64,000 nt of DNA from Lysobacter firmicutimachus. GTDB taxonomy: Bacteria; Pseudomonadota; Gammaproteobacteria; Xanthomonadales; Xanthomonadaceae. The notes under the pieces are model-generated. The model worked only from the letters and a program-made list of their open reading frames with translations, had not been told where the DNA came from and ran no database searches. This document shows positions 4,322-28,920 of this stretch, in pieces; position 1 is the stretch's first letter, and each line of letters starts with the position of its first letter. The stretch lies in assembly GCF_037027445.1 (NCBI RefSeq), contig NZ_JBANDL010000002.1, positions 1 through 64,000 of the forward strand, read 5' to 3'. A program made the translations under genes and the position numbers.

Positions 4322-4325
4322 GGCA

Positions 4326-5333
4326 TTACGCCTTCAGCTTCGGCAGCAGCGCGGGTCGATGACACATGGGCAACGGATTGGACTGGGTGTGCAGGTCGGT
4401 GCCGCGGTCGAACTTGCGCGGCGCCTGCTTGCTGTAGAGCAGTTGGCCGAGGGTGTTGACCGTCTCGTTGAAATCGGCTGGGGCGACGTAGGTGGCGAAG
4501 GTGTCAAGGGTACCCAGCGGAAAAGCATGGCCCTCGCCTTCGGCGATGAAGCGGCGGGGCTCGCCGTCCGGACCGCTGGCTTCGCCGGTGTACTCCTCGA
4601 AGCGTACGCCTGCCAGTCGGAAATCGGCGCGCATGTCGTCTCGCATCGCAGCGCCTTCCTGCCAGCGTTCGTAGGCCTTTTCCACCTTGGGATGGCTGGT
4701 CAGCGCGTCGAAGAACTCGCTGGATACCAGAACGTGAATACCGCTCATCCGTTCACCCTGGAGCGACTGGCTCATGTAGCGCTTGAGCTCCAGACACTTC
4801 TTGCGAACATCGGTTTCCTTGTTGCTCAGTTGGAAATCGAACGTCTTCGGAGTGATCTTGAAGATCTCGAACAGGTTCGCCAGTTCACTTCCATCGGCGT
4901 CCAGGATCACGCCCTTGAGCGCGCCCATGCGCAGATGCTCCAAGGTAATGGCGTGCTTGTTGCGCATCGTCTGCAGGTGGTCGGCCATAACCCCTGCGAC
5001 TGTTTCCAGATCGGTCTCGGTGCCGAATGCGCGAACGCCGACGACCTCTTCCGGCAGCACTACGTCGTCGTGGGGGATGTGCGGCACGTTGAACGCCCGC
5101 AGGGTTCGTTTGCCGCGCTTGCCCACCGAGCCAGGTGAACCCACCGGTTGCGTCTGCAGCAACGACAGCACACCGTTGCGCTCCTCGATCGTGACCTGGC
5201 GCGTGCGCACCGGCTTGATCGGAAACAGGTTCAACTCGTCCAGCCGGCCGTACTGGTTCGGCAGGAGATTGATTGCCGCGGTCAGGGCGCTGACCGAGAA
5301 CGCGGGGTTGTGGAACGGGTTGTTCATCGACAT
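4326..5333 (-). CDS. Major capsid protein (lambda gpE family)
   Basis: A 335-residue protein of the lambda E type, close to the usual length of about 340. Typical features are NPFHNPAFSVSALTAAINLL at the start, the ERNGVLSLLQTQPVGSPG region, HIPHDDVVLPEEVVGVRAFG, and the C-terminal DFNETVNTLGQLLYSKQAP. It forms the HK97-fold head shell, stabilised by the gpD-like protein encoded immediately upstream. No proteolytic signal is evident. Family call is strong. Confidence 0.92.
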   Translation of the reverse strand: MSMNNPFHNPAFSVSALTAAINLLPNQYGRLDELNLFPIKPVRTRQVTIEERNGVLSLLQTQPVGSPGSVGKRGKRTLRAFNVPHIPHDDVVLPEEVVGVRAFGTETDLETVAGVMADHLQTMRNKHAITLEHLRMGALKGVILDADGSELANLFEIFKITPKTFDFQLSNKETDVRKKCLELKRYMSQSLQGERMSGIHVLVSSEFFDALTSHPKVEKAYERWQEGAAMRDDMRADFRLAGVRFEEYTGEASGPDGEPRRFIAEGEGHAFPLGTLDTFATYVAPADFNETVNTLGQLLYSKQAPRKFDRGTDLHTQSNPLPMCHRPALLPKLKA

Positions 5334-5336
5334 GGA

Positions 5337-5729
5337 TCAGGTTCCTTGACGCACGAGCACGCCGGCAACGCGCAGTTGCTGGAGGCAAGCCGAGCGCTGT
5401 TCGGGGGTAATGGCTTTCGGCCAGACCAGAGCGTGGTCGGCCACGGTCGCGTGACGCGCGACGATCAGGCCGTCCGGGCTCGGCGCGTCGGCGGTGAGGA
5501 TCGGCACAATCACGACGCCGACCGCCTGCTCGCGGCCATCGGTGGCGGCCGGGTCGAGCGCCGCCACTTCGCCGGTCGCGGTGATGCGTCCGACCACATG
5601 ACCCAGTTGCAACGCTTGCTGCGCCGCCACGGTCACGCGATCGCGCGAGTACAGGTTGTCGGCTTCGAACTTGAGCAGGTCGCCCAGGTTGTTGGGCTCT
5701 GACTGCGGCGGGTAGACGGTGATGCCCAT
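5337..5729 (-). CDS. Head decoration protein (lambda gpD-like)
   Basis: A 130-residue beta-rich protein beginning MGITVYPPQSEPNNLGDLLK, with RVTVAAQQALQLGHVVGRIT and a C-terminal segment TPEQRSACLQQLRVAGVLVR, the pattern of lambda D-type decoration proteins that trim the expanded capsid. It lies between the protease/scaffold gene (1 bp gap) and the capsid gene (3 bp gap), as in lambda. Confidence 0.85.
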   Translation of the reverse strand: MGITVYPPQSEPNNLGDLLKFEADNLYSRDRVTVAAQQALQLGHVVGRITATGEVAALDPAATDGREQAVGVVIVPILTADAPSPDGLIVARHATVADHALVWPKAITPEQRSACLQQLRVAGVLVRQGT

Positions 5730-5730
5730 C

Positions 5731-6045
5731 TCAGCGCTCCCTCTTACAGCGCGCGGCCCGTGCCTCGACGGCGTGGATCAGCGGGTTGTCGTCCAGCGAC
5801 GTTGTGGCCGCCACGGACGCAGCAGTCGGGGACAGGTGGCTGGTGATCTCAGCCGTCTCGGCGCGCAGACCGAGCAGCTTCCGACGCACGTCAACGGTAC
5901 TCAGGCCTTCGCCCAGGAACTCCGCGGTCAGGTCGGGGCGCCCGGCGAGCGCGCACAGCTCGGCGATCGCCAGGGCATCGCCGTGCGCTTGCGCGCGCGC
6001 GGCGTCAATGTCGACGGCAGGCGCCGTCGATTCGGGGGTGGACAT
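5731..6045 (-). CDS. Nested scaffolding protein (lambda Nu3-like), in frame within the protease gene
   Basis: An internal ATG at 6045 (MSTPESTAPAVDIDAARAQA) is preceded by GGAG about 9 bases upstream and opens a 104-residue protein identical to the protease C-terminus. Lambda Nu3 is made in just this way from the end of gene C. The segment is charged and alanine-rich, as scaffolds are. Internal initiation is predicted, not shown. Confidence 0.5.
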   Translation of the reverse strand: MSTPESTAPAVDIDAARAQAHGDALAIAELCALAGRPDLTAEFLGEGLSTVDVRRKLLGLRAETAEITSHLSPTAASVAATTSLDDNPLIHAVEARAARCKRER

Positions 6046-6909
6046 CGTGGGGAACTCCAAGGAAGAGGGACGCGCGACCGCGTCCAGTTCGGTGTGCATC
6101 TGCAGCACGGCGTCGCCGAGCGTGCCGAGCCGGTCGGCCAGTCCCGCGTCGATCGCGTTCTGGCCGAAGAACAAGCCGGCCTCGGTCTGGCGGATGGCAT
6201 CGGCGGGCAGGCCGCGGTGATGAGCGACCGTCTGCACGAACAGTTCGTACAGGCGGTTCACTTCGGCCTGGATCGAGGCTCGGGCTTCGGGCGTCAGCGG
6301 CTCATGGGGGTTGCCGTCGTTCTTGCGCGCACCGGCCAGGATCGGGGTGTAGCTCAGACCTTGATGGGCGTCGCGCTGGGATTGGTCGACATGGAGCGCG
6401 ATCACGCCGATCGAGCCGATGCCGGCCGTGCGGGACACGAACACCTGCTCGGCCGCGCTCGCCAACGCATACGCCGCCGAAAACGCGGCATCGTTGGCGA
6501 CTGCCCAGATCGGCTTTTGGTCGCGGCCGGCGCGAATGCGGTCGGCCAGGTCGAACACGCCCGCGGCTTCGCCGCCGGCGCTATCGACATCTAGCACAAT
6601 GCCGCGCACAGACCGATCCGCCAGCGCGGCGTCCAGGCGTGCCGCGATGTTCTCGTAGCTGAGCAGGCCGGACATCGCGTCCAGTCCGCCGGTCCGTTGC
6701 ACCAGCGTGCCGTGTATCGGCAGAACCGCGATGCCTTGCGCCTCGCCAACGCGCGACGGCGCGGGCTGGGGCGGCCCCAACTGCGGGGGCGGCCCCGTCT
6801 GCAGTTCGAACTTGGGCGCGAGTACGTTCAGGATTACGTCCAGCTTGGCGCGCTGGATCAGCAGCGGCGTGTTGAACACGCGCGCCGCCAGGTAGGGCAG
6901 TCCGGTCAT
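5731..6909 (-). CDS. S49 family head maturation protease with C-terminal scaffold (lambda C-like)
   Basis: A 392-residue SppA/S49-type serine protease that processes the procapsid. The core includes VLDVDSAGGEAAG (residues 105-117), the likely nucleophile Ser144 in NDAAFSAAYALAS and the candidate general base Lys196 in LAGARKND, a Ser-Lys dyad arrangement. The C-terminal 100 residues are rich in Ala, Glu and Asp and separable as a scaffold, with an internal start at Met289. The gene overlaps the portal gene by 4 bp (ATGA), as in lambda B-C. Confidence 0.88.
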   Translation of the reverse strand: MTGLPYLAARVFNTPLLIQRAKLDVILNVLAPKFELQTGPPPQLGPPQPAPSRVGEAQGIAVLPIHGTLVQRTGGLDAMSGLLSYENIAARLDAALADRSVRGIVLDVDSAGGEAAGVFDLADRIRAGRDQKPIWAVANDAAFSAAYALASAAEQVFVSRTAGIGSIGVIALHVDQSQRDAHQGLSYTPILAGARKNDGNPHEPLTPEARASIQAEVNRLYELFVQTVAHHRGLPADAIRQTEAGLFFGQNAIDAGLADRLGTLGDAVLQMHTELDAVARPSSLEFPTMSTPESTAPAVDIDAARAQAHGDALAIAELCALAGRPDLTAEFLGEGLSTVDVRRKLLGLRAETAEITSHLSPTAASVAATTSLDDNPLIHAVEARAARCKRER

Positions 6910-8396
6910 GCGGGAAGGTCGGTCTCAGGCGGCGGCTCGGCCGGCACGGATTGGAAGGCGCCGTTGCGGGCGACGCGGCGCGGATCGGTGTCGAACACCA
7001 GGCCGAGGTCGTCGGCGCGCGCCGCGTCAGCCGCAATCTCTCGATCGATGGTCTCGGCGTCGTAGCCGGAACTGGCGATGGCTTCCGCGCGCGAGAGCAG
7101 GCCCGCCCGGATCGCCAGAATCATCGCGTTGAACTCCTTCTCCGGGTCCACCCAGTTCCAGCCCTGCGGCACCCATTTGCAGGCGCGGTACTGGCGCTTG
7201 CGGCGGCGATAGCCGGGCAGTTCGACGGCGCCGGCCAGGACGGCGGCGTCCACGAACGCGTTCCAGACGGGCCGGCACAGCTGGAACACCAGCACCGTGT
7301 GCTGGACCTGCTCGCAGCGGCGCCGGAACTCCAGCAGCCCGGCGCGGATGGACGAGTAGTTGACCCCGGTCAGGTCGCCGGTCAGCTGCTCATAGGTGAT
7401 GCCCATCGCCGCGGCGACGGCGCGGAATTGCGAGCGCAGGAACGCCTCGTAACTCGCGCCCACGTCGGCCGGCTGGGCGAAGGCGACGTTCTCTCCCGGC
7501 TCCAGGATCTGCAAGCTGCCTGGTTCCAGCCCCAGCGGCGCGTTGCCGTGCTCGTCCGCCGGGGCATCACCCGGCAGCGGATCGTCGGGGCCGCCGCGGG
7601 TAATGAAGCCGGCGAACATCGCCGCGGTCTTCTTGCGAACCAGCTCGGCATCGTCGTACTGATCCAGCTCGTTCAGCTTGACCAGCGCGCGCGCCAGCCA
7701 CGGCTCCCCGCGGATCTGTCCGGGACGCAGGGGGCGGAAGACGTGCAGGATTTCGGAGGCGCGGATCCTCACTGTGTCCATCCCGCCCTGGCGGGTCATC
7801 GGCGCCATAGCGCCGTCCTGCGGATGCGACAGGTAGAGGTGGTACGCCACCCGCCGGCCGAGCCGGTCGAACTCGATGCCGGCGCGAATGACGTTGCCGT
7901 TCGGCTCCTCCCGGTTCAGATGCAGCGGCAGGTGCTCGGGCTCCAGCACCTGCAGTTGCAGCGGCACCGCGAGCCCATCCTCTGGCCGGCGCGGGCGCAG
8001 GCGCACCAGGCACTCGCCCCCCTCCACCAGTGCGCGGCAGGCCAGCGCTTGCAACCCGTACAGATCGGTCAGGCCGGCCGCGTCGGCTTCGTCCACGAAG
8101 TCCCACCAAAGCGTGTGCAGCGCTTCGCGTTGGGCGGTGTCGGCGATCAGCGACTGCGGCTTGATCCCGGTGCCGACCGCGTTGGCGACGAACGCCTCCA
8201 CCGCGGCGTTGGCCCAGGCATTGCGCCGCACCAGATCGCGCGAGCGCACCCGCAGCGCATCCCCGGTCGCGACCAGCACTGCGACGGCGCCGGGATTACC
8301 GGGCTGCCAGGCCGTCGAGCGCCGGCCGTGGCCGGCGACCTCGTGTATGGGCGTTCCGCCGAACATCGCGGCGCGCAGCCGTCCCCACCAGCCCAT
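6906..8396 (-). CDS. Portal protein (lambda gpB family)
   Basis: A 496-residue portal subunit forming the dodecameric DNA gateway at one capsid vertex. Typical portal segments are LRVRSRDLVRRNAWANAAVE and FVANAVGTGIKPQS near the N-terminus, EILHVFRPLRPGQIRGEPWL in the middle, and GITYEQLTGDLTGVNYSSIR near residues 350-370. Length agrees with lambda-type portals. It starts 3 bp after the gpW stop and overlaps the protease gene. Confidence 0.92.
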   Translation of the reverse strand: MGWWGRLRAAMFGGTPIHEVAGHGRRSTAWQPGNPGAVAVLVATGDALRVRSRDLVRRNAWANAAVEAFVANAVGTGIKPQSLIADTAQREALHTLWWDFVDEADAAGLTDLYGLQALACRALVEGGECLVRLRPRRPEDGLAVPLQLQVLEPEHLPLHLNREEPNGNVIRAGIEFDRLGRRVAYHLYLSHPQDGAMAPMTRQGGMDTVRIRASEILHVFRPLRPGQIRGEPWLARALVKLNELDQYDDAELVRKKTAAMFAGFITRGGPDDPLPGDAPADEHGNAPLGLEPGSLQILEPGENVAFAQPADVGASYEAFLRSQFRAVAAAMGITYEQLTGDLTGVNYSSIRAGLLEFRRRCEQVQHTVLVFQLCRPVWNAFVDAAVLAGAVELPGYRRRKRQYRACKWVPQGWNWVDPEKEFNAMILAIRAGLLSRAEAIASSGYDAETIDREIAADAARADDLGLVFDTDPRRVARNGAFQSVPAEPPPETDLPA

Positions 8397-8398
8397 GA

Positions 8399-8617
8399 TC
8401 AGAAGCCCTTGGCGGTGGTGGTCAGCAAGCGGCGTACCCGGCGAGGTCGGCCCTCGGTGCCGGCGAGCGCGGCCTCGATCTCGCGAATCGCGGCCAGTAG
8501 CTCGTTGACGGAGCGGTACTCGACCAGACGGTCGCCGAAACTGACGCGGCGCTCGCCGCGCGCGAGTGCGTTGCGCAAGGCCTGCAACTGTTCGTGGGTA
8601 TACGGAAGATCGCTCAT
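8399..8617 (-). CDS. Head-tail joining protein gpW
   Basis: A 72-residue protein, MSDLPYTHEQLQALRNALAR, with RRVSFGDRLVEYRSVNELLA, close in size and pattern to lambda gpW (68 residues), which binds below the portal. The ATG at 8617 overlaps the terminase TGA (ATGA), fixing the start; a much longer upstream extension in this frame is a shadow of the terminase gene. Confidence 0.85.
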   Translation of the reverse strand: MSDLPYTHEQLQALRNALARGERRVSFGDRLVEYRSVNELLAAIREIEAALAGTEGRPRRVRRLLTTTAKGF

Positions 8618-10551
8618 CGCATGAAACGGCTCGAAATTACCCGGCGCCGTGGGCGCGGGCCAGAAGCAGAAAGGCCGCCCGAGGGGGCGGCCGTGGGAAT
8701 GGGTAGCGCAGTTGGAGCGGGCGATGCGGTCGGTGGGGCCAGGCCCAGCGTCCGCTCCATCTCCCGCCAGTGGCGTTCTTCGAAGCGGTCGACGCCGGTC
8801 TGCATCGCGCCGGCGCGCGCCATGACGTAGCAGTCGAGGGCTTCGTTGCGGTCGCGGCGCTTTTCCCACACCCGCTGCGGATAGCCGTGCCGGTCGCGCC
8901 GGGTGATCAGGTGCTCGGCAGTCAGCTGCTGGAGGAACTCGCCATCGACCTTGGGCAGATGGACATAGCCGGCCGGAAACACCGGCTGCCCGTCCGGGCC
9001 GATCTCGATCGACAGCCGCAGGGCGTTGTACAGCTCCAGCTTGGCGATCCCGCCCGCGACGGCAAACAGCTTCAGGCCGCGGCGCAGACGCTTGCCCGGT
9101 ACGCTGACATCGACCGCGGTCGGGATGCCGATCAACGCGGCGCCGCTGCCGACGCCCTTCATTGGCAGCAGGCGCGGGTCGGCGACGTCCCGGGCGAAGG
9201 CGTACGCCTCTTGCGTCGCGTAGCCGGTGTCCAAGCCGAGCCGGGTCAGCGGCAGCAGGGCGCCGGAGGCATGGGTCCACTGCTCACGCAGCAGCCCGGC
9301 CAGCTCGGTCCAGACCGCGGCGCGCGCCGTGTCGCCCATCAACACCCGGTGCTCGACCAGCCAGGTCTCACGCTCGCGGCCGAATGCCCAGACCGAGACC
9401 TCGATCCGGTCCTTCTGCACGTCGGCGCCGCCGGCCAGCAACAGGCCACCGGCCGGCACCGTGCCGACCCGGTAGTCCTCGCGGCGCTCCAGCAGACGCT
9501 CCCAATCGGGGGCCTCGCCCTCCTCTTCCCAGGTCTCGCCGAGCTCGGTGTTCTTGAACGCCTTGAGCGCTGTCGCCGAGCCCTGCGCGGCCTCCCAGGC
9601 GGCGGCGATGTCCGCCCAGCTACGCCAGCCGACCGGCGAGTACAGCGACGACAAGTGGTAGCCCGCGGTCTTGCCACGGTTCTGCGGCGCAGTGGCGATC
9701 CATCGACCGGCGGCCAACATCGCGGTCTTGTGATGCTCGCCGATCGGCTGCTCGCAGGTTTCGCAGATGTACCGGGCCGACCGCGGGTCGCCCCAGGTCC
9801 AGCGCAATTGTTCGAACCGCAGCCACTGTTCGTGCGCACAGTGTGGACACGGGACAAAGTACCGGCGCTGGTCGGAGGCCAGGTACTCGCGCTCGATGGT
9901 CGAGGCGCCGGCAATCGTCGGTGTCGACACCAGCAGGATCTTGCGGCGGGTGAAGGTGCGGGTGCGGGCTTCGGCCAGCGCCACCGCGTCGCCTTCGCCC
10001 TCCACGTCGCGCGGGTAGCCGTCCACCTCGTCCAGAAACAGGTAGCGGACCGGCATCGAGCGCAGGCCGACCGCGCTGTTGGCGCCGGTCAGGACCAGAA
10101 CCCCGCCGCGGAACTCCTTGGCGAGGATGGTGTTGCCCGAATCGCGTGCGCGCGAGGGCGCGATGCGCTCCCGCAGCGACGGCGATTCCTCGATCAGCGG
10201 ATCGACGCGCTGCTTGGAGTTGCGCTTGGCCATCTCGACCGTGGGCGCCACGGCCATCATCGGCCCCGGCGCGCACGCGATCACATAGCCGATCCAGTTG
10301 TTCCCGCACTCCGTGCCGCCGACTTGCGCGCCCTTCATGAATACGACGCGCTCGATCGCCGAGGCCGGCGACAGGTCGTTCATGATGTCGCGCAGGTAAG
10401 GCGTGCGCGCGGTGCGCCATCGCCCGGGCTCCGACGACGAGGTGCTCGACAGCACCCGGTCCTGGTCCGCCCAGTCCGACACGTCCAAGAACGGATCGGG
10501 CGCTAGCCCGTCGCGCCAGGCGCGGGCGACCTCATCGAAGCCGTCGTACAA
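8614..10551 (-). CDS. Terminase large subunit (lambda gpA family)
   Basis: A 645-residue packaging motor with ATPase and cos/pac-cleaving nuclease. A Walker A-like motif FMKGAQVGGTE lies at residues 71-81 and Walker B LFLDEVD at 171-177. A CPHC...CETC pair around residues 235-275 looks like a zinc knuckle. The C-terminal half carries gpA nuclease features (GLDTGYATQEAYAFARD). Length matches lambda A (641). It sits 3 bp after the small subunit. Confidence 0.95.
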   Translation of the reverse strand: MYDGFDEVARAWRDGLAPDPFLDVSDWADQDRVLSSTSSSEPGRWRTARTPYLRDIMNDLSPASAIERVVFMKGAQVGGTECGNNWIGYVIACAPGPMMAVAPTVEMAKRNSKQRVDPLIEESPSLRERIAPSRARDSGNTILAKEFRGGVLVLTGANSAVGLRSMPVRYLFLDEVDGYPRDVEGEGDAVALAEARTRTFTRRKILLVSTPTIAGASTIEREYLASDQRRYFVPCPHCAHEQWLRFEQLRWTWGDPRSARYICETCEQPIGEHHKTAMLAAGRWIATAPQNRGKTAGYHLSSLYSPVGWRSWADIAAAWEAAQGSATALKAFKNTELGETWEEEGEAPDWERLLERREDYRVGTVPAGGLLLAGGADVQKDRIEVSVWAFGRERETWLVEHRVLMGDTARAAVWTELAGLLREQWTHASGALLPLTRLGLDTGYATQEAYAFARDVADPRLLPMKGVGSGAALIGIPTAVDVSVPGKRLRRGLKLFAVAGGIAKLELYNALRLSIEIGPDGQPVFPAGYVHLPKVDGEFLQQLTAEHLITRRDRHGYPQRVWEKRRDRNEALDCYVMARAGAMQTGVDRFEERHWREMERTLGLAPPTASPAPTALPIPTAAPSGGLSASGPRPRRRVISSRFMR

Positions 10552-10554
10552 CGA

Positions 10555-11097
10555 TCACTCCAGGCGGGCGACGAAGTCGCCGAGTTCGGCCAAGTGCTGG
10601 CGCACCTCGCGCTCCAGCGACACGTGCATCGCATGAGGATCGATGCCGAGCTCGGCGGCCAGCATCGAACTGATGCGCGCCGGCCAGTTCAACCAGGCGT
10701 CGCGCTCGGCACGAGCCAGGGCGAAGACCTGGCCGATGGCCTGCTGCCGGTCGATCAGTTCGCCGCGCAGCTGCGCGATGCGCAGCTTGTGGTGCTGGGC
10801 CTTGAGGACTTCGTTGGCAGTCCGCGCCTGTGCGTAGCTGTTGCCGGTGGGAGCGCCAGACGGTGCAGCAATGGTCTCCTCGCCACGGGCCGCTGCGCGC
10901 GCCCGCGCCGGTCGGGGGGCCGCGCGTGATTCAGCCAGCTCGGCCTTGGTCGTGTTCGCGTCCCACTCGGCATCGGCGCAGGCGGCGTCGATGGTGCCGT
11001 CCGGCAACGCCGAGATGCGCCCGGTGGCGATGGCTTTGCGGACGGCGGTGTCCGAGACGCCGCGATGGCGCCCGTAGGCGCGAATGCTGATTCCCAC
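10555..11097 (-). CDS. Terminase small subunit / Nu1-like DNA packaging protein
   Basis: A 180-residue protein with an N-terminal helix-turn-helix (IRAYGRHRGVSDTAVRKAIA, residues 5-24) followed by GRISALPDGTID, as in Nu1-type proteins often annotated as 'elements of external origin'. A low-complexity Ala/Arg linker follows, then a helical C-terminus (RDAWLNWPARISSMLAAELG). It would recognise the packaging site and recruit the large subunit encoded next. Confidence 0.8.
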   Translation of the reverse strand: MGISIRAYGRHRGVSDTAVRKAIATGRISALPDGTIDAACADAEWDANTTKAELAESRAAPRPARARAAARGEETIAAPSGAPTGNSYAQARTANEVLKAQHHKLRIAQLRGELIDRQQAIGQVFALARAERDAWLNWPARISSMLAAELGIDPHAMHVSLEREVRQHLAELGDFVARLE

Positions 11098-11171
11098 AGG
11101 CGGTCAATCGCAGGTTCGGGCCTCCGCGACCGCCGGCCATCGGCGCAGATTGGGGTGAATGGAAGAGGGAA

Positions 11172-11201
11172 CACCCCAGCCCCCATTGAGGGATTGGGGT
11201 G
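11172..11201 (-). terminator. Hairpin terminator after the 11217 cassette gene
   Basis: Inverted repeat CACCCCA / TGGGGTG with inner pairing, just past the stop at 11217 and followed on the minus strand by TTCCCTCTTCC. Two neighbouring cassette genes end in similar hairpins flanked by the same GAAGAGGGAA sequence on the plus strand. Confidence 0.5.
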
Positions 11202-11216
11202 CGCGCTCTCAGGGTA

Positions 11217-11747
11217 TTAGTTGCGCGGCGCGCACATCGCGGCCGTGATGGCTTGCTCCAGATGCCGAATGGCCGAGCGGAGGCTGGGCTGGTACTTGGC
11301 GTCCGCCACGTCCCACACCTGCATCAACCGAGCCTGTTGTACCGCTCGATTGAGTTGATGCACCGGCAATCCTACGAATTCTGGCTCCAGAGCTTCGATG
11401 TAGCGCACGATTTCATCGTGCAACCAGCGCAACGTCATCTCATCCGCGCAGATCTCACTGGGAACCCAGCGCTTCGCGGACCAACTGCCGGTCTGATCGA
11501 TGGCGCGCTCGACCGGCGCCAGTTCCCTACGGCACTCGGCCACCAGCCGTCCAATGTTCGTCGGGTCGAGGCGGCGCGTACGAACTGTGTCCGTGCGTTC
11601 GGCGAGGATGCAGGCCAAGCCGTAGCAGGCGAACAAGGTCAAGCTCGATTCGGGTTGTGAGAATGTGTGTCCGGACCGCAGTATCCGTTCCAAATAGTCG
11701 CTGAGGCTTCGCAGCTCAGCGTCCGCAATGAAGATCTCCTGATTCAT
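11217..11747 (-). CDS. Hypothetical prophage cassette protein
   Basis: An unrecognised 176-residue, mainly helical protein (MNQEIFIADAELRSLSDYLE). It has no visible catalytic motif, signal peptide or membrane segment. What stands out is its surroundings: it is preceded by the repeated CTGTC-N6-CTGTC / GAAGCGTTCAT module (11785-11858) and followed by its own hairpin terminator, so it is a self-contained transcription cassette lying between the terminase and early regions. The segment LHDEIVRYIEALEPEFVGLP resembles helical regulators, but no function can be given. Confidence 0.7.
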   Translation of the reverse strand: MNQEIFIADAELRSLSDYLERILRSGHTFSQPESSLTLFACYGLACILAERTDTVRTRRLDPTNIGRLVAECRRELAPVERAIDQTGSWSAKRWVPSEICADEMTLRWLHDEIVRYIEALEPEFVGLPVHQLNRAVQQARLMQVWDVADAKYQPSLRSAIRHLEQAITAAMCAPRN

Positions 11748-11784
11748 GGTTCGCTCCTCTCACACCGCGTCGTTGCGGCAGCGG

Positions 11785-11858
11785 CATGAACGCTTCAGTT
11801 GCGGCGGAAGCCAAGCAGAACTTGCGGAACACGATGACGACGGACAGGTGCCCGACAG
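11785..11858 (-). promoter_or_regulatory. Repeated promoter/leader module, copy 1 (for the 11217-11747 gene)
   Basis: Reading toward the gene: CTGTC-N6-CTGTC (11858-11843), a spacer with CTTGGCTTCCGCC, then CTGAAGCGTTCATG (motif 11797-11785). The start codon follows 37 bp further on. One of seven copies; see findings. Confidence 0.65.
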
Positions 11859-11878
11859 CTTCGCCGGGCGCCCGTTAC

Positions 11879-12385
11879 CTACTCTGGGAACTGACCCAGC
11901 GCCTCTTCCAGCCCACCGACCGCCAAGCTGATTGCGTGCTGGAAATCGGCGTCGCAGGATCGCAGCACGTGCAGCCGTTCGACCGAGACGAGCGCCTTCT
12001 CGACCCATTGGCGCGGCGTCAGCGGCGACCGGCATTCCAGGTAGTCCTCGATCTGCTGCGCCGTGGCCGCCAGGAGGGCGGCGACCGCTTCGTTTCGGCG
12101 CTTGGGGCGTTGCTTGAGGCGATTGGCGCCGCTGAGGACGCGCAAACTCCACCGCCCCATTTCCTCGTTCACCACGGCCACCCGCGCGTGCAGTTCGATG
12201 CCGTCGATACGCCGTGCCCGGTCGATCCGCGTCCAGGGCTCCAAGAACCGGGTCAAGGCGGCGCATCCATCCACCGAGCACGTGCCGTACTCCCAGACCG
12301 GCTCCAAATCCGTCGGCGCGGTCAGCAGCCATCGAATCTGGCTCCCCAACGCACGCAAAGTGAAGAGATCTTGCTCGATATCCAT
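11879..12385 (-). CDS. Hypothetical prophage cassette protein
   Basis: A 168-residue protein (MDIEQDLFTLRALGSQIRWL) with a predicted helical fold and a C-terminal half containing EAVAALLAATAQQIEDYLEC and WVEKALVSVERLHVLRS. No known domain is recognised. Like its neighbours it carries the repeated upstream module, here at 12424-12498. No clear terminator was seen between it and the next leader. It could be an anti-host or anti-restriction moron, but nothing in the sequence shows this. Confidence 0.7.
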   Translation of the reverse strand: MDIEQDLFTLRALGSQIRWLLTAPTDLEPVWEYGTCSVDGCAALTRFLEPWTRIDRARRIDGIELHARVAVVNEEMGRWSLRVLSGANRLKQRPKRRNEAVAALLAATAQQIEDYLECRSPLTPRQWVEKALVSVERLHVLRSCDADFQHAISLAVGGLEEALGQFPE

Positions 12386-12423
12386 TGTTGCTGTTCCTAG
12401 GTCACCGCCCAGCGCGGCGATCG

Positions 12424-12498
12424 CATGAACGCTTCAATCCCCTGCGATTCCAAGCGTGAAAGCGAGGTAATAGGTCCCGGTAGACAGGCGACGGACAG
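12424..12498 (-). promoter_or_regulatory. Repeated promoter/leader module, copy 2 (for the 11879-12385 gene)
   Basis: CTGTC-N6-CTGTC at 12498-12483 and TGAAGCGTTCATG at 12436-12424 on the minus strand, with CGCTTGGAATCGCAGG between. The start codon lies 39 bp downstream. Confidence 0.65.
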
Positions 12499-12524
12499 CT
12501 TGCGGCGCGCGGCAGAAGAGGGAA

Positions 12525-12554
12525 AACCCCAGCGCCCGGTCGGGCGCTGGGGTT
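12525..12554 (-). terminator. Strong hairpin terminator after the 12570 cassette gene
   Basis: AACCCCAGCGCCCG and its exact complement form a 14-bp inverted repeat with almost no loop. On the minus strand it is followed by TTTTCCCTCTTC. It lies 16 bp past the stop of the gene ending at 12570. Confidence 0.75.
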
Positions 12555-12569
12555 GACGCTCTCGTGCTG

Positions 12570-12818
12570 TCAGCCAGCGGCGTTGTTCAGTTCATCAAGT
12601 ACCGGTGCAAGGTCCATGTCCGGCTCAAATTCCAATTCGCCACGCTCGGCCAATAGCTGGACGATGTTGACGCAGCTGGCTACCAATTGCTTCGCAGCGC
12701 TCAGTTCGTCATCGCTAAGCTTCTCGGGGTCACCATCCGTCAAATCTTCCAGCACGTGTTCGCAAACGCTCAAAGCAATGGCCGTGTTCTGGAATCGGCA
12801 GTAAGACATGTTCGACAT
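12570..12818 (-). CDS. Small hypothetical cassette protein (MSNMSYCRFQNT family)
   Basis: An 82-residue acidic protein starting MSNMSYCRFQNTAIALSVCE. Proteins opening with this MSYCRFQNT signature are recurrent, uncharacterised phage and bacterial proteins. The ATG at 12818 is preferred because a longer frame runs back through the repeated leader module. The remainder is helical (LSDDELSAAKQLVASCVNIV) and resembles the next cassette gene in layout: both end in an acidic tail after a FEANDREFELN- or LAERGELEFEP-type motif, so the two may be distant paralogues. No function known. Confidence 0.75.
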   Translation of the reverse strand: MSNMSYCRFQNTAIALSVCEHVLEDLTDGDPEKLSDDELSAAKQLVASCVNIVQLLAERGELEFEPDMDLAPVLDELNNAAG

Positions 12819-12857
12819 GGCTTCGCTCTCAAGTTCGCCGCGACGTTGCGGCGTGGG

Positions 12858-12930
12858 CATGAACGCTTCCTTCGAGCGGAATCGCAAGTGAATATCGCGG
12901 TCCATGGTAGGGCAGACAGCACAGGGACAG
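12858..12930 (-). promoter_or_regulatory. Repeated promoter/leader module, copy 3 (for the 12570-12818 gene)
   Basis: CTGTC-N6-CTGTC at 12930-12915, then GGAAGCGTTCATG at 12870-12858 on the minus strand. The start is 40 bp downstream, after a CCGCAACG-type sequence shared with copies 1 and 4. Confidence 0.65.
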
Positions 12931-12957
12931 CGTCGGCCTAGAATTGAAGAGGGAACG

Positions 12958-12982
12958 CCCCAGCGCCCGGCAGGCGCTGGGG
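12958..12982 (-). terminator. Hairpin terminator after the 13002 cassette gene
   Basis: CCCCAGCGCC and GGCGCTGGGG form a 10-bp stem around CGGCA, located 20 bp past the stop at 13002. The stem matches the core of the terminator at 12525-12554 almost base for base. Confidence 0.65.
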
Positions 12983-13001
12983 ACTTCGCTCTTCGTCTGG
13001 C

Positions 13002-13259
13002 TCAGGCGTCGGCCAGGCCGTTGAGGTATTCGACCGTCATGTTCACATCGATGTTGAGTTCAAACTCCCTATCGTTGGCTTCGAACAACGCCTGGATCAG
13101 GCGCAGGGACTCGGTGGCCAACGCTTTGGCCGCCTCCAGCTCCTCGGGGCCAAGGCGCGGGGCCATCTGCACCGCCATGTCCGCGAGGCGATTGGCGCAT
13201 GCTTCTTGCAGCGCATGAGCGGTGCGAAACAGGTGGGTCTGTGCAATTTCAATCTTCAT
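13002..13259 (-). CDS. Small hypothetical cassette protein
   Basis: An 85-residue helical protein, MKIEIAQTHLFRTAHALQEA, with an acidic C-terminus (ANDREFELNIDVNMTVEYLN) whose layout resembles that of the neighbouring 82-residue protein. The ATG at 13259 is preferred over an upstream in-frame extension that merely translates the leader module. It is divergently transcribed from the 13496 gene, with the two modules back to back in 13300-13462. No domain recognised. Confidence 0.72.
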   Translation of the reverse strand: MKIEIAQTHLFRTAHALQEACANRLADMAVQMAPRLGPEELEAAKALATESLRLIQALFEANDREFELNIDVNMTVEYLNGLADA

Positions 13260-13299
13260 GCTGAGGTTCCTGGCACTCGCCGCTCCGTTGCGGCGTCGA

Positions 13300-13364
13300 C
13301 ATGAACGCTTCATTCGGCGGCAAAGCCAAGCGAATCCGTAGCGGCGTAGACAGGAAACGGACAT
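13300..13364 (-). promoter_or_regulatory. Repeated promoter/leader module, copy 4 (for the 13002-13259 gene)
   Basis: ATGTC-N6-CTGTC at 13364-13349 and TGAAGCGTTCATG at 13312-13300 on the minus strand, with CGCTTGGCTTTGCCGCC between. It abuts copy 5, which points the other way. Confidence 0.65.
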
Positions 13365-13377
13365 CCTTCGAACGAAC

Positions 13378-13462
13378 CTGTCAGACACCTGTACACGCTG
13401 GAGAACGCGCGCTCTCTATCCCGAGAATGCGCTTGCTATGTGGGGCGAATGAAGCGTTCATG
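13378..13462 (+). promoter_or_regulatory. Repeated promoter/leader module, copy 5 (for the 13496-13882 gene)
   Basis: CTGTC-N6-CTGTA at 13378-13393 followed by ACACGCTGGAGAACGCGCG (also in copy 6) and TGAAGCGTTCATG at 13450-13462. The start codon is 33 bp further on, after an AAGGAGG Shine-Dalgarno-like stretch. Confidence 0.65.
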
Positions 13463-13495
13463 CGTCCACCCAACGCATGGCCAAGGAGGCCGCAC

Positions 13496-13882
13496 ATGGA
13501 CGACGCATTGCTCACCGAGATTGCGACGCAGAACTTCCGCCTATCCACGCTCGAAACTCGCCACAGCGACGAGCTGGATTTCCATAGCGTTGCCGTCTGG
13601 AGTATCCGGGCGGCGCTACGGTCTGCCTATCTGGCCGGCTACGCCGCCTCGATGCGTGCCGTGCGAGGCAAGGAGACCCCGCTGCCGACCGAGCACCACA
13701 CCATGATTCACGGTGTCTGGTTGGGTCAGGGCGAGGCGGCCGATGTCTCCGATGACCGGCGGGCCGAAACGATCGAGACGCTGCACATCCACGAGGTGGA
13801 ACTGCTCGCATCCCGCGACACGGAGCGCCTCGCCTGCGATGTGCTCATCCCTGCGGCGATTCGCCAGCGCCGCATCGGCTAG
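13496..13882 (+). CDS. Hypothetical prophage cassette protein
   Basis: A 128-residue protein (MDDALLTEIATQNFRLSTLE) preceded by a good Shine-Dalgarno sequence (AAGGAGG) and the repeated module, and followed by an intrinsic terminator. It contains VAVWSIRAALRSAYLAGYAA and a C-terminal block of acidic helices (RRAETIETLHIHEVELLASR). It is the first of a plus-strand block that runs against the surrounding minus-strand phage genes. No family recognised. Confidence 0.7.
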   Translation: MDDALLTEIATQNFRLSTLETRHSDELDFHSVAVWSIRAALRSAYLAGYAASMRAVRGKETPLPTEHHTMIHGVWLGQGEAADVSDDRRAETIETLHIHEVELLASRDTERLACDVLIPAAIRQRRIG

Positions 13883-13899
13883 CCGCACGCTGCGCCAGC

Positions 13900-13923
13900 G
13901 CCCCCGGAAACGGGGCTTTTCTT
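13900..13923 (+). terminator. Intrinsic terminator after the 13496-13882 gene
   Basis: A GC-rich stem (GCCCC/GGGGC with a GAAA loop) is followed by TTTTCTTT, 18 bp past the stop. This is a canonical Rho-independent terminator. Confidence 0.8.
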
Positions 13924-13939
13924 TACGTGCGCGACGAAG

Positions 13940-14023
13940 CTGTCCGACACCTGTCCACGCTGGAGAACGCGCGTTCTTTATCGCGAAAACCGCTTGGCTT
14001 CTCCGCAGGGTGAAGCGTTCATG
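13940..14023 (+). promoter_or_regulatory. Repeated promoter/leader module, copy 6 (for the 14057-14293 gene)
   Basis: CTGTC-CGACAC-CTGTC at 13940-13955, CACGCTGGAGAACGCGCG as in copy 5, CGCTTGGCTTCTCCGC, then TGAAGCGTTCATG at 14011-14023. The start is 34 bp downstream. Confidence 0.65.
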
Positions 14024-14056
14024 TCGCCACACCAACGACGGCCACGGAGGCCAGCG

Positions 14057-14293
14057 ATGAAAGTTCAGACCGAACAGCTCAAGCATTTCCTGCGCGGCAT
14101 GAAGCGGGCTGACCGCGCGAAGCTGGCGCAGCTGACCGCCTACGCGGACTGGCACGGCGCCGCCAGACGCGAACTCGAGCGCCGCGCCGAGCAGCTTTTG
14201 GAAACCTTGCCCGGGGACATCTTGTTGGGGCTGGTCTCCGGCGAGATCCAGATGCGCGAGACCATCGCCGATGTTCTTGCCGAGCAGCCCTGA
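14057..14293 (+). CDS. Small hypothetical cassette protein
   Basis: A 78-residue basic helical protein, MKVQTEQLKHFLRGMKRADR, with repeated charged helices (RRELERRAEQLLETLPGDIL). The last bases overlap the start of the next gene by about 20 bp, so the two are probably translated together. It is preceded by the repeated module at 13940-14023. No recognised domain. Confidence 0.68.
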   Translation: MKVQTEQLKHFLRGMKRADRAKLAQLTAYADWHGAARRELERRAEQLLETLPGDILLGLVSGEIQMRETIADVLAEQP

Positions 14294-14474
14294 ACTCAGG
14301 TTCCTCAAGGCGGTGCACAGCTCGGTTCTAGTCGCCGCCGCCAGCGGAACCCTCGACCTCAACCAACTGGCTCGCGACGAACTGATTCGTCGCGGGCTGG
14401 ACCCCAGCGGCGAATGGGTAGGTCCCCGCCGCGCCTACGAATTGCATCACCCCATCCAAGGAGCATCATCATGA
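14271..14474 (+). CDS. Small hypothetical protein (DLNxLARxELxxRGLD type)
   Basis: A 67-residue protein with VAAASGTLDLNQLARDELIR and RGLDPSGEWVG, a short pattern that recurs in small plasmid and phage proteins annotated only as hypothetical. It lacks its own copy of the leader module, overlaps the gene before it, and shares 4 bases with the start of the DUF3489 gene, so it is the middle member of a three-gene unit. Confidence 0.65.
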   Translation: MFLPSSPELRFLKAVHSSVLVAAASGTLDLNQLARDELIRRGLDPSGEWVGPRRAYELHHPIQGASS

Positions 14475-15076
14475 GCACCATCGAACTGTCCGCCAACCAG
14501 CGCAGCGTCCTCGAACTGGCCCTCGACACCGAGGGCCGCATCGAGCGCTATCCTGCCAGCTTGCTGGGCGGCGCGCGGACCAGCGTCATGCGCGGCCTGC
14601 TGCGAAACGAACTGGTCGAAGCGCACGATGCCGGCTACCGCCTTACCGCTGCCGGCTACGCGGCCATCGGCGCCAATGAGCCGGCTGGCGAGGACATCGC
14701 CAGCGAGAATGCAGGCGCCGAGCCGGAGGCCGATGCGGGCGAAGGCACCGAGCCGAGTTCGGACCATGCACTGCCCGAGCCCGCACCCGCACCCGCACCG
14801 GCTAAGCCGAAGCGCGCCGCGCGCGGGGACACCAAACTGGCGACGGTCGTCGGCATGCTGATGCGCCCGGATGGCGCCACCATCGCCGAGATCATGGCCA
14901 AGACCGACTGGCAGCAGCACTCGGTGCGCGGCTTCCTCGCCGGCGCAGTCAAGAAGAAGGGCTACACCGTGACCAACACCAAGGAAGGCCAGGGCGAGCG
15001 GGTGTACCGCATCGCGACCGAGGCGCCGCAAGCGGACGCCGGCAACACCGGCCCGCAGGCCGACGAAGAAGAGTAA
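14471..15076 (+). CDS. DUF3489 domain protein
   Basis: A 201-residue protein from the ATG at 14471 (MSTIELSANQRSVLELALDT), which has AAGGAG 7-12 bases upstream; a longer frame is possible but unlikely. The N-terminal part looks like a winged helix, then an acidic and Ala/Pro linker, then the DUF3489 region (LATVVGMLMRPDGATIAEIM, TDWQQHSVRGFLAGAVKKKG), a winged-helix-like domain found in phages and many proteobacteria. It probably binds DNA; its role is unknown. Confidence 0.85.
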   Translation: MSTIELSANQRSVLELALDTEGRIERYPASLLGGARTSVMRGLLRNELVEAHDAGYRLTAAGYAAIGANEPAGEDIASENAGAEPEADAGEGTEPSSDHALPEPAPAPAPAKPKRAARGDTKLATVVGMLMRPDGATIAEIMAKTDWQQHSVRGFLAGAVKKKGYTVTNTKEGQGERVYRIATEAPQADAGNTGPQADEEE

Positions 15077-15083
15077 GCCCACC

Positions 15084-15113
15084 CAGCGAGCTGGACACCT
15101 GCCCGGCTCGCTG
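15084..15113 (+). terminator. Hairpin after the DUF3489 gene
   Basis: CAGCGAGC and GCTCGCTG form an 8-bp stem with a 14-base loop, followed by TCTCGTT. The last bases overlap the CTGTC element of module copy 7. Confidence 0.45.
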
Positions 15114-15193
15114 TCTCGTTCGTGTCTGCCTCGATTCCAGCAGCAGATCACACGAGAATCCGCTTGATGTTCCGTCGCGATGAAGCGTTCATG
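15111..15193 (+). promoter_or_regulatory. Repeated promoter/leader module, copy 7 (for the 15218-15499 gene)
   Basis: CTGTC-N6-GTGTC at 15111-15126, then CGCTTGATGTTCCGTCGCG and TGAAGCGTTCATG at 15181-15193. The start codon is 25 bp downstream after GGAGAACGACC. Confidence 0.62.
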
Positions 15194-15217
15194 GCCTCCC
15201 AGCCACGGAGAACGACC

Positions 15218-15499
15218 ATGCACGACGCAGTGCCAACCCAGTCAGGATACGATCTCGCCGCCCTGCCGGCCACGTTGCTTCAGATGGTCGAAGAGATCTT
15301 GTCCAACGATGAAAGCAGCAGCGACGCCGAACTGGCACAGTACCTGACCGAAGTCGGCCTGTCCGACACGCAAGCCCGAGACGCGCTGGCCTACCGGGAT
15401 CTGTACCGCTTGAATCTCTGGGTAGCCGGCTGCACGCCGATTCGCGGCGGTGTCCAACTGCGCTACAACGGGACCATCGGCCAGTTCGAACTCGCCTGA
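15218..15499 (+). CDS. Small hypothetical cassette protein
   Basis: A 93-residue protein, MHDAVPTQSGYDLAALPATL, mostly acidic helix (MVEEILSNDESSSDAELAQY) with a short basic end (GGVQLRYNGTIGQFELA). It is the last plus-strand cassette and converges on the methyltransferase gene ending at 15531. The ATG at 15218 was chosen over an upstream ATG that lies inside the repeated leader. No function recognised. Confidence 0.68.
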   Translation: MHDAVPTQSGYDLAALPATLLQMVEEILSNDESSSDAELAQYLTEVGLSDTQARDALAYRDLYRLNLWVAGCTPIRGGVQLRYNGTIGQFELA

Positions 15500-15530
15500 T
15501 GCTCGGGCCGCCGCCCCGCGCCGTGCAGCG

Positions 15531-16568
15531 TCAGGGGCGCAGTGCTCTCAGGATCTCGGCGGCGACTTGCGGGACGATCGCGTTGCCGGCGGCGCGCAGC
15601 CGAGGAATTCTTCCGGGTATCCCATGAGCCAGAAGACGAATTCCGGGTTCAGGTATCCGCCGGCCGGCGAGGGTGCGACCTGCCGCCCAAGCATCCCATT
15701 CTCCGGCGCGCTGCCAACGCTCGATGCATCCTTGTGGTCCCGCGTCGTCGGTGTTGCCCATACTGCCTGCGCCGGGAGCGGCTGCGTGCTGCCGCTGCCG
15801 AAGGCCTGGTTCGGCCCGCCCTTCTCCCCGTCGCGCGCGCGCGGGGTGCTCCACACCGCCTTCGCCACCCCCGGCAGGCCATTGCGTCGCTCGGCCGCAA
15901 AGTCGCCGCGCTTCTCGGCGTCGTTCGCCGTGGCCGTTGGCCAGACCATTCGCGCCACCTGAGCCAGTTCGATGGTCCGCTTCTTCCCGCCCGGCGTCTG
16001 GCCGGTCAGTGTTGTCCCCGCCGGCACCGTGCGCCCGCCGCTCGGCGTCAGCGCGGTGGGCCAGACGGCGCCCGACGATCCAAACCCGGTCGCGCCGATG
16101 GGGGGCGTTGACGGCGCAAGCTGGAACAACAATCGCCCGGCCGGCGTAGCCTTCGCCTTCCAGGTCAGCGAGAACTCCATCGAGCCCCAGCGGGATGAGG
16201 CCAGTAACGTTCTCGCCCAGGAATAGAGCGGGTCGCGCTTGTGCAATAAGGCGATGCAGTTCCGGCCAGAGGTGACGGTCATCCGCTTGCGCACGCTGGC
16301 GCCCAGCGACGCTGAACGGCTGGCAGGGGAAGCCGCCGGTCCACAGCGGCACGTCGTCGGGCCACCCGGCGAGGCGGGCGGCGTAAGCGAATCCGCCGAT
16401 GCCGGCGAAGAAGTGGCATTGGGCGTAGCCGCGGACATCAGCGGCGGAAACAGATCGGATGTCCCGGTCATCGACGTCGCCGGGCGGGATCAGCTCGGCC
16501 CGGATCAGGTTGCGCAGCCAGTCGCATAGGTAAGGGTCGTTCTCGTTGTAGTAGGCAAGGCGGGTCAT
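15531..16568 (-). CDS. DNA (cytosine-5-) methyltransferase, phage type
   Basis: A 345-residue C5-methyltransferase. SAM-binding motif I is CHFFAGIGGFAYA (residues 51-63), the catalytic motif IV GGFPCQPFSVAGR has Cys82, ENV is at 119-121 and a motif VIII-like NAPHRRDRVWIVG follows. The end (RLRAAGNAIVPQVAAEILRA) matches motif X. Between motifs VIII and X the product is an odd run of Arg, Gly and Ala, while another minus-strand frame there reads like normal protein. The stop of the upstream ParB-methyltransferase gene overlaps its ATG. Likely modifies phage DNA against restriction. Confidence 0.88.
   Translation of the reverse strand: MTRLAYYNENDPYLCDWLRNLIRAELIPPGDVDDRDIRSVSAADVRGYAQCHFFAGIGGFAYAARLAGWPDDVPLWTGGFPCQPFSVAGRQRAQADDRHLWPELHRLIAQARPALFLGENVTGLIPLGLDGVLADLEGEGYAGRAIVVPACAVNAPHRRDRVWIVGRRLAHRADAERRAHGAGGDNTDRPDAGREEADHRTGSGGANGLANGHGERRREARRLCGRATQWPAGGGEGGVEHPARARRGEGRAEPGLRQRQHAAAPGAGSMGNTDDAGPQGCIERWQRAGEWDAWAAGRTLAGRRIPEPGIRLLAHGIPGRIPRLRAAGNAIVPQVAAEILRALRP
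15548..16237 (-). CDS. Overlapping alternate-frame segment within the C5 methyltransferase gene
   Basis: In the other open minus-strand frame, this stretch reads SWARTLLASSRWGSMEFSLT, WKAKATPAGRLLFQLAPSTP, repeated WPTATANDAE- and WATPTTRDHK-like units, and LNPEFVFWLMGYPEEF. This W-P-T-P and NP-x-W-LMG-P pattern is itself a widespread sequence in phage cytosine-methyltransferase loci. Either the region encodes two proteins, or it is the true target-recognition sequence reached by a frameshift. No good start codon of its own is evident. Confidence 0.4.
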   Translation of the reverse strand, partial: RDPLYSWARTLLASSRWGSMEFSLTWKAKATPAGRLLFQLAPSTPPIGATGFGSSGAVWPTALTPSGGRTVPAGTTLTGQTPGGKKRTIELAQVARMVWPTATANDAEKRGDFAAERRNGLPGVAKAVWSTPRARDGEKGGPNQAFGSGSTQPLPAQAVWATPTTRDHKDASSVGSAPENGMLGRQVAPSPAGGYLNPEFVFWLMGYPEEFLGCAPPATRSSRKSPPRS

Positions 16569-18210: not shown

Positions 18211-18660
18211 TTAGCCACGTTTACCTGCGTTAAGCGAAACCCTCTCGGCAGCCAGACCAATCTCCACGTCGGCAAATCGCGGCAACGTCCCGTTGAGATG
18301 CACCGCGACCAGGCTGAGCGCATGCTGCCAGCGACGCCATGCGGTCTTCCGGATCAGGCCGGTGCGGTTGCACACTTCACGCCAGGGAACGTACTGCGCT
18401 CGCAGCCAGATCAACCTGCGCTGCTCTTCGTCCAGCCAATGCAGCCAGCGTACGGTCTCGCCGAACCGGTCGATGGCTGCGGGTGACGCAGCGAAGCGCA
18501 GGATGATGCGCTCGTCGGCGTAGCCCTCCCACGACTGGCGGTGGATGTCGGGCCAGAACGACGCATACCCCTGCACCCGTGCGGGCGGCAAACGCCGCGC
18601 GGTAATCGCCGCTTCTTGGAAGCGGTCGGCTACTTGGTCGATCGTCCAGACCGTGCTCAT
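18211..18660 (-). CDS. DUF6362-like phage protein
   Basis: A 149-residue basic protein, MSTVWTIDQVADRFQEAAIT, containing ARRLPPARVQGYASFWPDI and RRLIWLRAQYVPWREVCNRT followed by a helix-turn-helix-like GLIRKTAWRRWQHAL. This matches the DUF6362 pattern, common next to phage replication genes. It may bind DNA. The start overlaps the RuvC-like gene stop (ATGA), so the two are co-translated. Family name is from memory of the motif. Confidence 0.65.
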   Translation of the reverse strand: MSTVWTIDQVADRFQEAAITARRLPPARVQGYASFWPDIHRQSWEGYADERIILRFAASPAAIDRFGETVRWLHWLDEEQRRLIWLRAQYVPWREVCNRTGLIRKTAWRRWQHALSLVAVHLNGTLPRFADVEIGLAAERVSLNAGKRG

Positions 18661-28731: not shown

Positions 28732-28920
28732 ATGCCCATCAATGCCGCCGAACTGTCCCCAGATCAACGTCGGCAGGCCGTAGCGAAACTGCTCGCGCTT
28801 GCTCTCGTTCGTTTCCGCACTGGCTCAGCGCCTGTCGGTTGGACCCAGAAGGGGGTTGCACTATCCCGCGCGGGAAGCGTGCATACGCACCCCGACCAAC
28901 CACGTCCAACCCGCCGATGA
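28732..28920 (+). CDS. Small recombinase-associated protein
   Basis: A 62-residue protein, MPINAAELSPDQRRQAVAKL, with LALALVRFRTG in the middle. Short proteins with 'RRxxVAxLLAxALxR' commonly precede DUF2924 and large serine recombinase genes in prophages. Its TGA overlaps the ATG of the DUF2924 gene (ATGA). Function is unknown. Confidence 0.6.
   Translation: MPINAAELSPDQRRQAVAKLLALALVRFRTGSAPVGWTQKGVALSRAGSVHTHPDQPRPTRR

Follow-up and report, generated by a model that had tools for sequence, protein, structure and literature searches.

Seven Copies of One Module in a Lysobacter Prophage

The first 64,000 nucleotides of contig NZ_JBANDL010000002.1 of Lysobacter firmicutimachus, the stretch analysed here and referred to below as the window, carry a prophage in which seven small genes on both strands are preceded by the same non-coding arrangement, and the question is whether this arrangement works as DNA or as leader RNA, and which protein reads it. 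Our analysis points to a widely conserved family of predicted phage promoters with a strong candidate regulator, a protein of the uncharacterised family DUF6362 (PF19889) encoded in the same prophage (18211..18660, minus strand). We consider it rather probable that the seven copies belong to a phage regulon of near-identical promoters, and not of leader-RNA elements, which is served by this protein.

A preliminary description of the locus, made from its sequence alone, had reported seven such copies, and all of them were found, each before a gene starting with ATG. In a scan of the window, TGAAGCGTTCATG occurs at 11785, 12424, and 13300 on the minus strand and at 13450, 14011, and 15181 on the plus strand, with GGAAGCGTTCATG at 12858 on the minus strand; a CTGTC-N6-CTGTC box lies upstream of all seven copies and is exact in four and has one mismatch in three. 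A profile derived from related copies gave the seven sites 30.2-44.5 bits and the rest of the window no more than 10 bits, the best score in its 32-62 kb part being 5.3 bits. The box alone, with one mismatch allowed, was weakly enriched in the window (8 found versus 4.1 expected), and the 13-mer with three mismatches was not (19 found versus 16.8 expected); the signal therefore lies in the exact copies and their arrangement. The expectation that the motif would be confined to phage cassettes held for most sites in the host genome: 18 of the 22 with at most one mismatch to the 13-mer fall in phage modules (a count that includes copies repeated by a redundant assembly and two that lie just beyond the window), but the other four sites are isolated.

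The assembly is redundant, since the end of contig C2 (L022, G000:C2:5296000-5307239) duplicates window positions 1405-12644 at 100% identity and contig C3 (L023) duplicates positions 1-16104 at 99.9%, so that core counts in this genome are inflated. Two additional boxed cores at C2:64593 and C2:65157 (L021, positions 2594 and 3158), which lie outside both the window and the conserved prophage, are apparently a remnant of a related phage.

Core Anatomy and Promoter Geometry

The repeated pieces noticed earlier proved to be parts of one fixed 31-bp core, GCTTGGCTTC-N6-GAAnnnnGCGTTCAT, whose two blocks, numbered from the predicted start (core position 17), span -37 to -28 and -21 to -7. On the minus strand, core promoters 1 to 4 occupy 11786..11816 (39.1 bits, predicted start 11779), 12425..12455 (34.0 bits, 12418), 12859..12889 (32.2 bits, 12852), and 13301..13331 (44.5 bits, 13294), while core promoters 5 to 7 occupy 13431..13461 (32.5 bits, 13468), 13992..14022 (37.7 bits, 14029), and 15162..15192 (30.2 bits, 15199, which is C and not a purine) on the plus strand.

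Conservation was assessed in two collections. The first set comprises 164 copies, deduplicated from 225, from loci found by a pattern holding most of the core, so that their conservation is partly by construction; the 12-mer GAAGCGTTCATG is nearly fixed in it, and so, counted from this 12-mer, are CTTG at -19 to -16 and T at -12. The second consists of 79 deduplicated non-Lysobacter copies in 36 loci that were found by their DUF6362 protein, the copies being picked at a threshold of 24 bits with a profile refined there, and it gives GCTTGGCTTC-N6-GAACAGCGCGTT(CA or AC)T as the general form outside Lysobacter. GAACAGCGC at -21 to -13 is nearly invariant in these 79 copies and looser in the first set, which in turn conserves CAACGA at about +5 to +10, a string that is weaker in the non-Lysobacter copies. 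The string CGCTTGGCTTCCGCC, described as often lying between the two parts, is indeed present, but it is not optional, its TTG standing at a fixed distance in every copy. The proposed ATGAA-GCG-TTCAT dyad is not conserved, the base before GAAGCG being G in 79, T in 52, C in 25, and A in 8 of the 164 copies.

The geometry of the core is that of a predicted promoter. TTG at -35 and a 17-bp spacer agree with the canonical sigma-70 pattern, but positions -12 to -7 read GTTCAT (or GTTACT), with T at -7 and also T at -11, and a scan found no canonical sigma-70 -10 element (A at -11, T at -7). A pyrimidine-purine step at -1/+1, positions covered by neither the refined profile nor the rules of selection, occurs in 68 of the 79 non-Lysobacter copies and 126 of the 164 first-set copies. 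The core, part of the -35/-10 spacer included, varies less than an ordinary host promoter would, and it is therefore probably read by a dedicated phage factor. RNA polymerase would start about 7 bp downstream of the core and make a leader, predicted at 19-35 nt in the window, followed by one small gene.

The likeness to the start-associated sequences (SAS) of mycobacteriophages holds in spirit, as the SAS and extended SAS (ESAS) of cluster K are likewise repeated conserved sequences before unrelated small phage genes. The asymmetric 13-bp SAS (GGGATAGGAGCCC) lies immediately upstream of gene starts (PMC3203893), whereas the core described here has promoter geometry and is separated from the start codon by at least 25 bases.

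DNA Element or Leader RNA

Leader-RNA control had also been suggested, and the core could then be an antitermination RNA, a riboregulator, or a translational switch. Leaders of the Lysobacter type do fold better than mononucleotide-shuffled sequences (mean z -1.66 for 50 of the minus class and -1.51 for 25 of the plus class), although they were picked by hairpin-like strings, which favours good folding. Within the core, however, pairings are altered on one side only and break without compensation: the fourth GAAC/GTTC pair is found in 68 of the 146 distinct first-set cores and core pair -4/8 is formed in 62 of 81 other cores. Moreover, the leaders of 50 non-Lysobacter copies do not fold as a group (z -0.08), no Rfam family reached its gathering score in positions 10500-16500, where the two matches obtained were both far below it, and the phasing of the upstream site described below argues for DNA. 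Taken together, the one-sided pairing changes, the unfolded non-Lysobacter leaders, and the lack of an Rfam family make the core best read as DNA, and we regard a leader-RNA role of the core as the least likely of the explanations weighed here, with hardly any probability.

A hairpin in the leader may affect mRNA stability or translation in the Lysobacter lineage. The leaders of promoters 5 and 6 (e.g., 14029-14056) contain a hairpin of the GGCCACGGAGGCC type around the ribosome site, with paired changes in relatives seen by eye; the GGCCACGGAGGCC leader of the plus class resembles a CsrA/RsmA target.

Distribution of the Core and Its Linkage to DUF6362

Searches of related prophages and genomes revealed that clusters of the core recur in Lysobacter prophages and in many other phages. 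The exact 13-mer is present in 11 of the 20 genomes of the genus, but the matches in G005 and G011 stand alone, without the module, leaving real clusters in nine of 20. Across a family-wide sample, the two-part pattern with at most one mismatch was matched in nine of 247 genomes, six of them in the genus and three with lone one-mismatch sites elsewhere. Exact pattern searches yielded 38 stretches in IMG/VR and 31 in named genomes; sorted by title and by reading, the latter included 10 from Lysobacter, seven betaproteobacterial ones (among them Nitrosomonas communis and Ferriphaselus), one alphaproteobacterial one, and 13 lone matches in unrelated bacteria that look like chance.

From these 69 stretches, 23 records that were neither of Lysobacter type nor chance-like were picked by eye, leaving aside the 13 lone stretches. 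DUF6362 was found in 15 of them versus none of 14 control genomes; by record type, it was present in 9/9 viral contigs of at least 12 kb, 0/6 shorter contigs, and 6/8 multi-contig genomes. Among 369 genomes of the class, DUF6362 exceeded the cut-off in nine (with four more below it), the core with up to two mismatches occurred in 11, and both were present in eight; in other words, the core accompanies 8 of 9 DUF6362 genomes versus 3 of 360 others. The sole DUF6362 genome without a core, G610, has a completeness of 75%. The core stands without DUF6362 in three genomes, namely G536, where it apparently marks what is left of a prophage as judged by eye, G283, with a single two-mismatch match whose sequence equals that of locus L305 (see below), and G586, with a lone two-mismatch match.

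The converse search started from the protein and gave, among the matches listed, 80 further loci found by DUF6362 only. All 38 loci with at least 6 kb downstream of DUF6362 scored at least 20 bits with the refined profile. As this profile was drawn from the same loci, the count was repeated with the profile before refinement (33/38 loci at 20 bits or more, 36/38 at 12 bits or more) and with leave-one-out profiles (38/38, lowest score 26.0 bits), while none of 190 Markov shuffles reached 20 bits, the highest scoring 11.9. In the 41 loci with a match, the nearest core lies 2.0-7.6 kb downstream of DUF6362, except in L305, whose only match is 9.5 kb away on the other side of the gene.

Genome G400 holds two prophages, each with a DUF6362 gene close to a core cluster of its own. 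Their core variants are not the same, being GCGCCTTAAT/GCGCCTTCAT in one (C1:1028410-1030080) and GCGCGTTCAT in the other (C1:2954495-2955694), and the two prophages constitute a natural specificity pair.

Two observations qualify the assignment of the core to DUF6362. The gene is confounded with a replication module: among 19 full loci, DUF6362 and RuvC are present in 19/19, and primase, methyltransferase, and DUF3489 in 18 each. In addition, a Rhodobacter phage whose DUF6362 protein is 37% identical has no core in the 20.8 of its 42 kb covered, so that the pairing seems to hold for a subfamily and not for the whole family. The confound is countered by the 12 genomes with a strong primase relative (phrog_6088, E<=1e-60, a split chosen after seeing the values), which separate by DUF6362: the four that have it carry the core, and the eight without it over the cut-off do not. 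Among DUF6362 genomes with a weak primase, the core is present in G301, G400, G446, and G631 and absent from the fifth, G610. As a co-occurrence control, phrog_159 failed and was discarded, because it matches the host RuvC (350 of the 369 genomes).

The earlier proposal of a shared regulator and a small prophage regulon is well supported, but the two proteins suggested for this role, those of genes 26885 and 25874, are poor candidates for reading the core: among related prophages with closely alike promoters they are 29-58% identical, as against 76-84% for DUF6362, when the same-species prophage G007 (94-95%) is set aside.

Predicted Fold of DUF6362 and the Mode of Action

DUF6362 carries a sigma region-4-like domain, and its predicted fold appears to match best the antiterminator Q of phage 21 (21Q), to which the model seems alike over nearly the whole protein. 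This likeness comes from a second-look alignment, as Foldseek alone gave no match at E 0.001 or below, and a sequence search against solved structures returned two chance-level matches. DUF6362, whose gene stands with the replication genes of this phage, would be the most likely factor reading the core, being favoured by its region-4-like domain and by its resemblance to 21Q, which binds the same -35/-10 spacer. As with the 21Q binding element, the conserved element here is placed between -35 and -10, at -21 to -13, and the DUF6362 gene likewise stands late in what, judging by gene order, looks like an early operon. The two systems differ in that phage 21 has one late promoter, while DUF6362 phages have up to 12 core copies in one cluster (L043), and the two proteins yielded no sequence match.

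By analogy, the proposed regulon resembles those of known Q21-, AlpA-, and Gaf-type regulators. AlpA of Pseudomonas aeruginosa (element GGGACG-N5-GGTA) is likewise a small DNA-binding regulator acting in the -35/-10 spacer of more than one target promoter. GafY and GafZ of the Caulobacter gene transfer agent are also phage-derived and act at numerous promoters whose -35 is degenerate, GafY at about 18, and the GafZ element lies in the spacer, as here; however, GafY binds far upstream and needs IHF, and GafZ is reported by its authors to have an AlphaFold-predicted structure without similarity to known antiterminators.

The same likeness raises the alternative of processive antitermination of the Q type, in which host polymerase would by itself start weakly at each core, and DUF6362 would load in the spacer and enable it to read through terminators, linking the minus-strand cassette to terminase and the late genes. 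The modelled fold, with 21Q as the apparent top match, speaks for it, as does the position of the element, which matches those of 21Q, AlpA, and GafZ. CAACGA of the first set resembles the -10-like pause sequence CACGAT of the AlpA promoter, but it often lacks the final T. Candidate terminators are available as well: behind three of the four minus-strand genes stand strong terminator-like hairpins, with 11-13 pairs and the tail TTCCCTCTTC, at 11163..11202 (between gene 1 and the terminase genes, just before the terminase small subunit), 12516..12554 (after gene 3), and 12947..12982 (after gene 4), all on the minus strand. Across ten Lysobacter clusters, 21 hairpins with this tail, which the search required, were found in nine. 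A general terminator scan of positions 10500-16000 gave three, no more than in shuffles (mean 3.6), and misses the TTCCCTCTTC hairpins because their tails are not pure T. On the plus strand, a terminator-like hairpin with a T tract follows gene 5 (13900..13916). The order of a minus-strand cassette is therefore box, core, leader, gene, and usually terminator.

These hairpins stand after the genes, and no terminator lies between any core and its own first gene, where antitermination of the 21Q/AlpA type would lead one to expect it. Furthermore, non-Lysobacter cores face away from terminase in 87/87 matches (from the 28 of 38 loci in which terminase was found), so that the late genes are not downstream there. 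The missing intervening terminators, the poor -10 element, and the orientation of these cores favour initiation over antitermination, which we judge unlikely. DUF6362-dependent initiation at the small genes would thus be the principal effect, by which the protein probably turns on all seven genes jointly; in Lysobacter phages, polymerase could in addition read through into the terminase operon as a second effect.

The Upstream Box and Its Helical Phasing

The 50-70 bp spacing reported between box and gene-proximal motif is not loose but falls into three phased classes. The window alone holds all three (offsets -62, -63, -61, -53, -73, -72, and -71 for promoters 1 to 7), the boxes being located on the minus strand at 11843..11858 (centre at -71.5 from the predicted start), 12483..12498 (-72.5), 12915..12930 (-70.5), and 13349..13364 (one mismatch, -62.5), and on the plus strand at 13378..13393 (one mismatch, -82.5), 13940..13955 (-81.5), and 15111..15126 (one mismatch, -80.5). 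In the first set, 101 of 164 copies have a box with up to two mismatches, 98 of them at offsets -73 to -71, -63 to -61, or -53, and these 98 sites give the consensus SCTGTCYGNCNSCTGTCYG. The opposite-strand control held 18 exact boxes in 164 copies versus 71 on the right strand, which we put down to neighbouring divergent promoters.

The phasing was also analysed in a reduced set. In ten Lysobacter clusters and L021, 60 of 78 copies are boxed, and dropping copies more than 60% alike leaves 28, with 27 in the three classes and one at -42. Their phasing gives R=0.88 for a period of 10.5 bp and 0.91 for one of 10.0 bp, and none of 5000 draws reached 0.88 under a null that spreads sites evenly over -75 to -50 and takes no account of past duplication, a weakness lessened by the use of the 28. 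Box centres in Lysobacter phages thus lie near -62, -72, and -82 from the predicted start, about 10 bp apart, which are positions expected of a class-I activator. A second candidate protein would therefore be expected to bind the box on one face of the DNA in these phages, at class-I distances from the predicted start. The non-Lysobacter copies listed lack the box, as far as they were read, so that it looks like a lineage-specific addition to the more widely shared core.

One could suppose that this activator belongs to the host and that the modules are ordinary sigma-70 promoters, controlled at CTGTC-N6-CTGTC only and spread by cassette duplication. The box does resemble an 11-bp direct-repeat response-regulator site such as the Pho box, and the similarity of some copies, both in one phage and in different ones, is high enough for duplicates, as the reduction from 60 to 28 at 60% identity illustrates. 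Nevertheless, the core is conserved in phages without the box and also where the DUF6362 proteins of two phages share about 50-60% identity, and in the host genome the box by itself is as frequent as a reversed control (17 versus 17), which makes control by a host activator alone highly improbable.

When up to two mismatches are allowed, the window contains three sites of the palindrome AGAACGNNCGTTCT versus 2.45 expected by chance, and hence no enrichment. Two of these sites lie between box and core, at 13402-13415 and 13964-13977 (promoters 5 and 6, one of them mismatched), and the palindrome is also seen by eye in relatives; it is a possible operator.

Genes Served by the Core

The minus-strand genes under promoters 1 to 4 encode proteins of 176 aa (11217..11747, no family found), 168 aa (11879..12385, no significant family), 82 aa (12570..12818, phrog_8760, function unknown), and 85 aa (13002..13259, no significant family). 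On the plus strand, promoter 5 precedes a DUF6900 gene (13496..13882), promoter 6 a small gene (14057..14293) followed by a DUF3489 gene without its own core (14471-15076), and promoter 7 a gene for a protein of 93 aa without a significant family match (15218..15499). NCBIfam searches with six proteins and PADLOC searches with eight small genes found nothing. Among annotated phages, the region matched three records, all of AcaML1, the match being confined to a single segment of the DUF3489 gene about 150 bp long, and a plasmid search gave short matches to four records.

A degenerate related promoter precedes an integrase-linked gene in 6/6 non-Lysobacter phages (19-33 bits). The corresponding site in the window (28854..28884, plus strand, 3.3 bits, before gene 28917-29396) can be aligned with those of nine related Lysobacter prophages but is weak (-6.1 to 6.6 bits over the ten); its -35 is TTGATA in five of ten, which fits the -35 reading.

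In L305, the core at about 870 (minus strand) stands directly before an integrase-like segment (YNSIDAQKEAGHAYV) that lacks the catalytic N-terminus; the notion that this match lies inside the integrase gene was dropped. Its sequence is identical to that at G283:C5:23657 and nearly identical to those at G550:C2:168965 and G400:C1:2902281, the frame having been checked in L305 only. Cores of this type are possibly a rearranged integrase promoter.

Implications for the Phage Lineage

A search of the open-access literature for the motif strings GAAGCGTTCATG and CTTGGCTTC, DUF6362, and Lysobacter prophage promoter motifs found no description of this system among the papers listed. An uncharacterised family with at least 513 relatives among the 600 IMG/VR stretches listed is now linked to a near-invariant DNA target, and the precision of this target makes binding and activation by DUF6362 directly testable. 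The core also offers a handle for finding and dating small unknown genes that the lineage probably co-expresses, and the three-class helical phasing of the box provides a natural series in which class-I activation can be followed beyond the standard models. The linkage also opens a way to study how a Q-like protein could have come to act at many promoters rather than at a single one. More tentatively, DUF6362 could represent a new class of phage proteins that confer promoter specificity. As a free-standing module of the sigma-region-4/Q21 type, it would make host RNA polymerase use an otherwise ignored 31-bp promoter, and in a large phage lineage of which almost nothing has been cultured it would control regulons with several promoters each, comprising small accessory genes and the integrase.

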